From NCBI GenBank assembly GCA_021770245.1, contig JAETRI010000030.1, positions 1-40,427 on the forward strand: a DNA stretch of 40,427 nt, read 5' to 3'. Position 1 is the stretch's first letter. Every line of letters starts with the position of its first letter. The position numbers and the translations under genes are program-made. Below the pieces are notes generated by a model. It had not been told where the DNA came from and searched no databases. It saw only the letters and a list, made by a program, of their open reading frames with translations. The stretch comes from Lachnospiraceae bacterium. GTDB lineage: Bacteria > Bacillota > Clostridia > Lachnospirales > Lachnospiraceae. Shown piece after piece: positions 13,528 to 40,303 of this stretch.

Positions 13528-13692
13528 CTTTTCGGCCAGGACAAACGCATGAATGGCCCTGCGGCCCCTGCGCCACCCCCGCCCGTCCCTGCGGAGTGGG
13601 ATGGTCCCCTCTGTGATCATCACACGCCTCGGGGACGGGCGGGGGTGGCGCAGGGGCCGCAGGGCCATTCATGCGTTTGTTCTGCTTTTCGG
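13528..13692. mobile_element. 149-bp palindromic element with 8-bp target duplication, copy 2
   Basis: The element 13536-13684 has perfect 49-bp inverted arms (13541-13589 and 13632-13680) and a 42-base loop. It is immediately bracketed by CTTTTCGG at 13528-13535 and 13685-13692. The outer arm ACAAACGCATGAATGGCCC is shared with the other copies. It encodes no protein, so movement would need enzymes supplied in trans. It lies between eutH and spoVAC, which diverge. Confidence 0.8.
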
Positions 13693-28097: not shown

Positions 28098-28182
28098 CCA
28101 GGACAAACGCAGGAATGGCCCTGAGGCCCCCGCCCTGCCCCGCAGCACGGGGGCCTCAGGGCCATTCTTGCGTTTGTCCTGG
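28098..28182. repeat. long-stem palindromic element, copy 3
   Basis: Thirty-five-base arms (28098-28132 and 28148-28182) with one mismatch and a 15-base loop. The ends CCAGGACAAAC and GTTTGTCCTGG show the full termini of the family. Imperfect flanking repeats GCAACCCA (28093-28100) and GCATACCCA (28182-28190) resemble a decayed target duplication. It lies between the zinc-ribbon gene and the kinase gene. Confidence 0.85.
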
Positions 28183-39575: not shown

Positions 39576-39625
39576 CGGGACAAACGCATAAACGGCACTG
39601 AGCCCGTCTGCCGGGCCTTGTGCCA
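39576..39625. repeat. half copy of the long-stem palindromic element, copy 4
   Basis: GGGACAAACGCATAAACGGC (39577-39596) matches the outer arm of the family, but the right arm is replaced: only a short hairpin GGCAC(N3)GCCCG with CGGGC(N3)GTGCC remains. It lies between the exporter and the recombinase gene. Confidence 0.65.
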
Positions 39626-39640
39626 AAAGGCAAAAAACAC

Positions 39641-39669
39641 TCTTTTTTGCGTGTCTTCTTTAATATAAT
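39641..39669 (+). promoter_or_regulatory. promoter of recombinase gene
   Basis: TATAAT at 39664-39669 with only a weak T-rich -35 at 39641-39646 (17-base spacer). A GCAAAAAA/TTTTTTGC hairpin (39630-39650) overlaps the -35 region. GGGAGG precedes the ATG at 39698. Confidence 0.45.
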
Positions 39670-39697
39670 AGAAAAAAAACAAATGAGGGAGGACAAT

Positions 39698-40303
39698 ATG
39701 GAGAACCAATACGCGTATGTTCGTGTGAGCACCAGGGAGCAGAATGAGGACAGGCAGAGGCTTGCGATGCAGGAACTTGGGATTCCGAAACAGAGGATTT
39801 ATACGGATAAACAATCGGGGAAAGATTTTAACCGGCCAATGTACAGAAAGCTGCTGAAGCGGCTGCAGGCCGGCGATCTGCTTTATATAAAGAGCATTGA
39901 CCGATTGGGACGCAATTATGAAGAAATTTTGGAGCAGTGGAGATATTTGACTAAGGAAAAGAGAGTGGATATCTGTATTTTGGATATGCCGATTTTGGAT
40001 ACACGGCGAAACGGCGACTTGATCGGAGTGTTTATCGGGGACGTGGTGCTGCAGGTGTTATCTTTTGTAGCAGAAAATGAACGCAAAAATATACGAGAGC
40101 GTCAGCGGGAAGGAATCGCCGCAGCCAGGCTGCGGGGCGTAAACTTTGGCCGGCCTGAAAAACCCTTGCCGGAGAATTTTGAAACGGCGTACCGGGATTG
40201 GCAGGAAAAGCGGATTACAGGCACAGAGGCGGCGAGGTCTTGCGGAATGGCAAAATCAACGTTTTATAATCGGGCGAATAAGGTGCGGGCTAAGCAGGTA
40301 TGA
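39698..40303 (+). CDS. serine recombinase (resolvase/invertase family)
   Basis: A 201-residue site-specific recombinase. The catalytic serine is S11 in VRVSTREQ; conserved arginines occur in the RLGRNYEEI segment and ENERKNIRERQREGI. A short helix-turn-helix (RITGTEAARSCGMAKSTFYNRANKV) forms the C-terminus. The length is normal for Hin/Tn3-resolvase types, which act on short crossover sites. No transposase is adjacent in the window and I could not identify a crossover site. It looks AT-richer than most neighbours and has no stem-loop leader, consistent with transfer; mobile genes may continue beyond the window. Confidence 0.93.
   Translation: MENQYAYVRVSTREQNEDRQRLAMQELGIPKQRIYTDKQSGKDFNRPMYRKLLKRLQAGDLLYIKSIDRLGRNYEEILEQWRYLTKEKRVDICILDMPILDTRRNGDLIGVFIGDVVLQVLSFVAENERKNIRERQREGIAAARLRGVNFGRPEKPLPENFETAYRDWQEKRITGTEAARSCGMAKSTFYNRANKVRAKQV

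Follow-up and report, generated by a model that had tools for sequence, protein, structure and literature searches.

Evidence that a palindrome in a Lachnospiraceae genome is a miniature element with ISAs1-family ends and homogenised arms

Introduction

REP sequences and REPINs are small, highly repeated mobile hairpins, and we know of no target-site duplication at elements of this kind. Rickettsia palindromic elements are mobile palindromes of about 150 bp that make up several families and are known for integrating in genes. Target duplications of the ISAs1 insertion sequences (ISs) fall in the range of 8 to 10 bp. Our literature search on the duplication length of ISAs1 found nothing, and the accessible parts of PMC3281130 and PMC3606827 hold nothing on an ISAs1 miniature element (MITE) or its duplication length. 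MITEs are typically AT-rich according to the accessible part of PMC10969869, which also mentions the Rickettsia palindromic elements. Template switching within an inverted repeat makes its arms identical, as set out in the accessible parts of PMC8604942 and PMC8794818. A search for literature on palindromic elements and template switching in bacterial genomes returned a single match, on worm mitochondria, and a search on repeats in Lachnospiraceae or Eisenbergiella found nothing relevant; we make no claim that such work is absent from print.

Here we describe a palindrome in a contig of 40,427 nucleotides (JAETRI010000030.1 of assembly GCA_021770245.1), the whole of which we call the window, from a Lachnospiraceae bacterium whose genome is designated G000. 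The palindrome and its family share with the prokaryotic MITEs Chunjie, Correia and QMITE2, as far as the accessible part of PMC10969869 describes them, a length below 500 bp, terminal inverted repeats, direct repeats at younger copies, size variants and a strong hairpin. They differ from prokaryotic MITEs in G+C content (70% in the window element; 53% in the window), in inverted arms that take up almost the full length of the element and co-vary from one copy to the next, and in a core that is conserved at the tip of the full-length form. With the ISAs1 family (NF033564) the element has in common a 19-bp end, identical to the right end of the member in its own genome, and a related ISAs1 copy has a 9-bp duplication; unlike an ISAs1 IS, it carries no transposase, and the likeness is confined to the ends in the stretches compared. 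Target duplications at 15 of 49 copies and IS-type ends set the family apart from REPIN and REP elements. It resembles the Rickettsia palindromic elements as mobile palindromes of about 150 bp, and here an IS partner and duplications are identified. Quasipalindrome correction likewise makes the arms of an inverted repeat identical, in blocks; here this is seen across a whole family of mobile hairpins, whose arms measure from tens of bp to more than 100 bp.

Results

The palindrome (13537 to 13684, 148 bp) lies between the divergent genes eutH (minus strand; EutH Pfam match, 348 bits), which begins outside it, and spoVAC (plus strand) on its other side. A sequence-only reading of this DNA had described a protein-free palindrome with perfect 49-bp arms and CTTTTCGG on both sides, and direct reading together with a script bore this out. 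The arms, 13541 to 13589 (plus strand) and 13632 to 13680 (minus strand), form one unbroken complementary run. Outside them, the three outermost pairs match and the fourth (13540/13681) is mismatched; past the 49 bp, pairing continues with scattered mismatches (70-nt arms, 91% complementary). The flanking repeats occupy 13528 to 13535 and 13685 to 13692, and with the element placed at 13537 to 13684 one extra base (C, 13536) remains between the left CTTTTCGG and the consensus end CAGGAC. The duplication may therefore be one of 9 bp, with its left copy at 13528 to 13536, whose last base has changed (CTTTTCGGC/CTTTTCGGA). CTTTTCGG occurs four times in the window when both strands are counted.

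The element ends in CAGGACAAACGCATGAATGGCC. Its left terminal inverted repeat (13537 to 13555, plus strand, 19 bp) and its right one (13666 to 13684, minus strand) differ by one mismatch. Between the perfect arms lies an asymmetric-loop remnant (13590 to 13631) from which the core hairpin of full-length copies is missing; 13601 to 13628 reads ATGGTCCCCTCTGTGATCATCACACGCC, as does one loop side in L019 and other full-length copies. The single-stranded DNA of the element has a folding energy of -90.1 kcal/mol, and shuffled sequences average -32.6 (SD, 3.0; z, -19). The element is, like a MITE, short and devoid of any gene, that for a transposase included, and it has the form of a core-less internal-deletion copy. 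A search of the whole window against Rfam gave nothing at gathering score. Two further, short family copies lie in the window, at 28099 to 28181 (83 bp) and at 2229 to 2313 (85 bp), both with no duplication found; the latter has a different arm sequence, common to both its arms. In the region 39576 to 39700, a single family arm, at 39576, was also seen shortly upstream of an open reading frame whose start looks, by eye, serine recombinase-like (MENQYAYVRVSTREQ...).

One ISAs1-family transposase locus was found in the assembly, on contig C6 (NCBIfam NF033564, 328.9 bits with a cut-off of 70; PF13808, 86.8 bits; PF01609, 62.6 bits). The right end of this IS, CAGGACAAACGCATGAATG, is identical to the left terminal repeat of the palindrome at 19 of 19 bp; its left end is lost at the contig start, and the sequence continues AACGCATGAATG. 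A complete 1247-bp ISAs1-family IS in genome G215 (L214, 332 bits), with a transposase 85% identical to the one on C6, carries the 19-bp CACGACAAACGCATGAATG at both ends, and an ISAs1-family IS in G250 (L224, 239 bits) has similar ends and, by eye, the 9-bp duplication AGTGTTTGC. We also observed a 334-bp member (L138:313-646) with ISAs1-type ends; its interior, which contains GCAGGCTCCCGGACACCGGGGCGCACAGGG, is just as palindromic but unrelated, and a similar palindrome follows the IS on C6.

The arm is highly repeated: its 18-bp end, with up to 3 mismatches, matched 352 times in the 4.28-Mb G000 genome, and the reversed control matched 3 times. Among the matches listed, we examined 49 copies with both arms, a sample of the 352 (51 were listed; the second frame of L140 and a false pairing at L033 were removed). 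These range from 57 to 399 bp. The full-length form measures roughly 200 to 245 bp; shorter copies, including that in the window, are without the inner hairpin, and three longer copies hold an additional insert. The assembly consists of 237 contigs, several of which start or stop inside a copy, which suggests that the element may be one cause of the fragmentation; C81, C37, C83, C152 and C23 are examples of contigs with such ends.

Direct repeats 8 to 15 bp long stand at, or within 2 bases of, the ends in 15 of the 49 copies, whereas pairing with wrong flanks gave a mean of 0.05 duplications (maximum, 1 in 200 trials). The claim of insertion with target duplication, made from the sequence alone, therefore stands, so far as sequence evidence reaches. 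The further claim that the duplications are of 8 bp, and the expectation that other copies would show them, fared less uniformly: the length is not fixed at 8 but is mostly 8 to 10 bp, with one repeat of 11 (with a mismatch) and one of 15, and no clear duplication was detected at 34 of the 49 copies. Repeats of 9 bp are common (GATTTCGCC, CGGGTGTGG, ACCGAAAAT, ATTCGCGTC and CCCTTTGAA), and GTATATAGGA and AGTCCGTTTA are of 10 bp. The usual length is thus that of the IS, the related copy of which has 9 bp. The longest repeat, a perfect 15-bp GAAATATTCTGATCC at L034:1008-1379, exceeds the usual 8 to 10. Overshoot of the palindrome into its flanks was considered as a cause of missing duplications and rejected, with inverted flanks at 1 of 49 copies (shuffled mean, 0.1 to 0.26). 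Core-less copies hold 10 of the 15 duplications, which means either that the ends suffice for insertion or that the core was lost afterwards. Four of the five 79-bp copies, at separate places (L053, L098, L100 and L124), have one layout, with a duplication only at L100; this common layout favours movement of the core-less form.

The closest congener found, G011, has about 85% DNA identity in the window region. In pairwise alignments it lacks the element at three sites, namely, the window site, that upstream of groES (L019) and L020, with flanks that align across the junction; the family is dispersed in many copies and absent from these orthologous sites. The proposal that relatives would show an empty site with a single CTTTTCGG holds in part, in that G011 has no element at the window site; the target itself has diverged at the empty sites, and no single copy is visible letter for letter. 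Besides the window, five joined sites were queried in G011; three had matches, among them L100 (after tRNA-Gln), and L072 and L128 had none. A related superfamily element is present in G011 near L100, and another was found near the L072 locus, reached via another locus. Flank matches between G000 and G011 link L065 with L259, L072 with L160 and L100 with L263; the left flanks of the last pair align poorly, and it may be one common site whose arms changed together.

The entire 148-bp element found no match at an E value of 1e-6 in 60 relatives. Shorter end patterns do recover a wider family: a 17-mer end is present in 40 of 295 sampled genomes, G000 included, and similar ends enclose different interiors in other genomes of the order (L154, L168 and L179), with duplications of about 10 bp by eye. 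Neither element nor core matched in phage and plasmid collections, and viral contigs held no exact match to a core pattern or a paired-end pattern.

The two arms of a copy resemble each other far more than they resemble the arms of other copies. Arms were compared over positions 13 to 50, with mismatches and gaps counted, in the 27 copies that reach 117 bp or more. The median difference was 2.6% (mean, 6.9%) between an arm and its own partner and 23.7% between an arm and the partners in other copies. The best-matching partner was the copy's own arm in 21 of 27, and none of 10,000 random re-pairings brought the difference below 17%; L143 and L055, with clearly unlike arms, were exceptions. A divergence of about 24% between copies whose own arms match means that both arms changed together. 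A block marker lies beside the core. In 15 of 23 core-bearing copies its two sides differ, one being ACAGAG and the other CATC; both sides are ACAGAG in 3 and CATC in 5, and the reversed arrangement occurs in none (the states of L148 and L151, 2 of the 23, were read by eye). This is most simply read as copying of one side over the other, which took place in both directions. The sequence-only reading had ascribed the perfect arms to recent movement or active homogenisation, and the co-variation and the marker directly support the second of these.

Some decay with age is present as well, since duplicated copies have somewhat fewer mismatches: 19/204 against 56/378 in copies without duplication at positions 1 to 12, and 39/451 (8.6%) against 91/797 (11.4%) at positions 21 to 55, with 17 copies counted here as duplicated (the 15 plus L020 and L128, score 6.0 each). 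The outermost 12 bp of long copies have more mismatches (47/318) than positions 13 to 30 (12/467), an excess that may reflect an edge effect and that is biased, because the search for copies used an 18-mer at positions 5 to 22 and allowed up to 5 mismatches. As the assembly is fragmented, with contig ends within the element, short reads could hide or smooth differences between arms; near-perfect arms also occur in G012, a single 7.29-Mb contig, which counts against such smoothing.

Full-length copies bear at their tip an inner module of about 80 bp, a conserved imperfect hairpin that we call the core; the window copy is without it. The core is repeated in 5 of the 13 genomes searched (G000, G001, G002, G011 and G012). 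A 20-mer ISAs1-type end, with up to 3 mismatches, had no match in G001 or G002 and one in G012, and in these three congeneric genomes the core is found at the tip of different palindromes, near-perfect ones that lack ends of the ISAs1 type. Of 40 loci fetched from them, 32 contained the core by strict anchors, as did 4 of the other 8 by looser anchors. At 27 of the 32 cores the arms are 53 to 114 nt long, and in the aligned part the two arms of a copy are 92 to 100% identical, as judged from local alignments, which select the well-matching part; four of the remaining five lie beside contig ends, and L315 has 35-nt arms. In G001 the arms of L299 (101/101) and L303 (114/114) are perfect. Arms differ strongly between copies in G001 and less in G012, where several copies have most of the arm in common and an end like GGGTGCAGATAAAAAAG. 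Duplications of 8 to 11 bp flank 6 of 13 G012 copies (null mean, 0.1 to 0.2; maximum, 2), and none was detected at 14 among the giant near-perfect hairpins of G001 and G002 (L297 to L316).

When ten G001 copies were traced to G012, a flank was found for 10/10 and the core at 0/10 by strict anchors, similar anchors having missed 7 of 20 fetched G012 loci. Both flanks of eight copies match in G012 less than 100 bp apart, too close for the element; those of L309 lie 236 bp apart, and L312 matched on one side only. The base-level alignments of these sites are noisy. The ten copies thus yielded no orthologous pair, and the G001 copies look lineage-specific.

An alignment of 57 cores from the five genomes (59 rows minus a chance match at L020 and the second strand of L308) keeps ACGCCGG, CUUA, UUAGUACCG, UGCGU and the greater part of GAGCGAAAGCG. 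Most copies have the stem AAAAACGC/GCGUUUUU, and most of those in G012 have UAAGCACGC/GCGUGAUUA. A two-base bulge and a mismatched stretch remain unpaired, the stretch having turned complementary in 2 of 57 (L289 and L308), and the tip stem varies between genomes. That the core retains its imperfections while the arms are homogenised suggests selection on its shape. No Rfam family matched the core: a search with six core-bearing loci produced two matches, which lay outside the core and did not reach gathering score. In L034, L035 and L118 a second palindromic mini-element lies within the core; its ends, CAATGTGGTCAACTTAAG, presumably recall IS231/IS4-type elements. By eye, all three have the same 11-bp duplication CGCTAAGTGCC, so these composites were probably copied as units.

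Discussion

We consider it very probable that the window palindrome is a MITE with ISAs1-family ends that was moved by an ISAs1 transposase and whose arms were homogenised by template switching. There is good evidence that the window element itself is of an ordinary kind, a MITE tied to its IS. Its most likely mover is the ISAs1 transposase, to judge from the shared 19-bp end, and the earlier suggestion of a miniature element moved in trans is thereby strengthened. The DDE transposase of the ISAs1-family IS would act on the CAGGACAAACG ends of the non-autonomous element and insert it at a staggered cut, leaving a target duplication of mostly 8 to 10 bp. An internal deletion from a full-length hairpin would have removed the core of the window copy. 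During replication, DNA synthesis would at times switch template within the hairpin and copy one arm from the other, and a change in one arm would then be either erased or passed to its partner. Template switching best explains the homogenisation of the arms. The co-evolving arms, together with a conserved tip on palindromes with different ends, make the family an unusual variant.

The arms might instead be kept complementary by selection on the pairing of a transcribed hairpin RNA or a folded single strand, through compensatory mutations and with no copying from a template. The folds are indeed very strong (-216 kcal/mol for a 245-nt copy; z, -22), five genomes share a conserved core tip, with conserved unpaired features and some compensatory changes, and arm compensation in Borrelia repeats was taken as conserved RNA structure in the accessible part of PMC2674063. 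On the strand defined by the core, the 92 arm mismatches include 23 G-U and 16 C-A, an excess in the direction expected of RNA that is small and that we do not regard as a convincing strand bias. Compensatory mutation fits poorly with blocks of unequal length (ACAGAG and CATC) that agree between the two arms of 8 of 23 copies, in both directions, and core-less copies, too, insert with duplications. We therefore think selection on RNA pairing unlikely as the source of the matching arms. It is also improbable that the copies are perfect merely through youth, having been perfect at insertion and decaying since, with no active homogenisation. The apparent lineage specificity of the G001 copies and the lower mismatch rate of duplicated copies agree with youth, but the gap between duplicated and non-duplicated copies is small, G001 and G002 copies at which no duplication was detected (0/14) have arms 92 to 100% alike over the aligned part, and a difference of about 24% between copies that match within themselves is at odds with it.

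A repeated intrinsic terminator or regulatory palindrome, flanked by repeats through chance and with no transposon behind it, would suit the position between divergent eutH and spoVAC, and such strong hairpins could terminate transcription. End repeats far above those of shuffled flanks, the IS-type ends and the missing element at three sites in a relative make this explanation scarcely credible.

For the core itself, as distinct from the ISAs1-type MITE in the window, we raise a more tentative possibility, which we hold to be rather doubtful at present: that the core is under selection in its own right, acts as a folded single strand or an RNA, and spread through the genus at the tip of giant palindromes with species-specific ends and fast-evolving arms constrained mainly to match. 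In this reading the ends are ISAs1-type in G000 and not recognisably common in G001, and those in G012 resemble GGGTGCAGATAAAAAAG and come with duplications of about 9 bp. If it were true, core and arms would together form a mobile hairpin of a new kind, recognised by a factor of its own.

These elements bear on two old questions: what keeps mobile palindromes perfect, and whether stems that covary are a sign of RNA function. With many copies, copy-specific arm pairs, a marker that is copied both ways and a tip that keeps its mismatches, they provide a natural experiment that can separate template switching from RNA selection, and they indicate that covariation in bacterial repeat hairpins is by itself no proof of RNA. 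The conserved tip, found in several species on differently ended palindromes, points to a hairpin under selection, and the family is a natural resource for work on the ways in which cells maintain perfect DNA palindromes.
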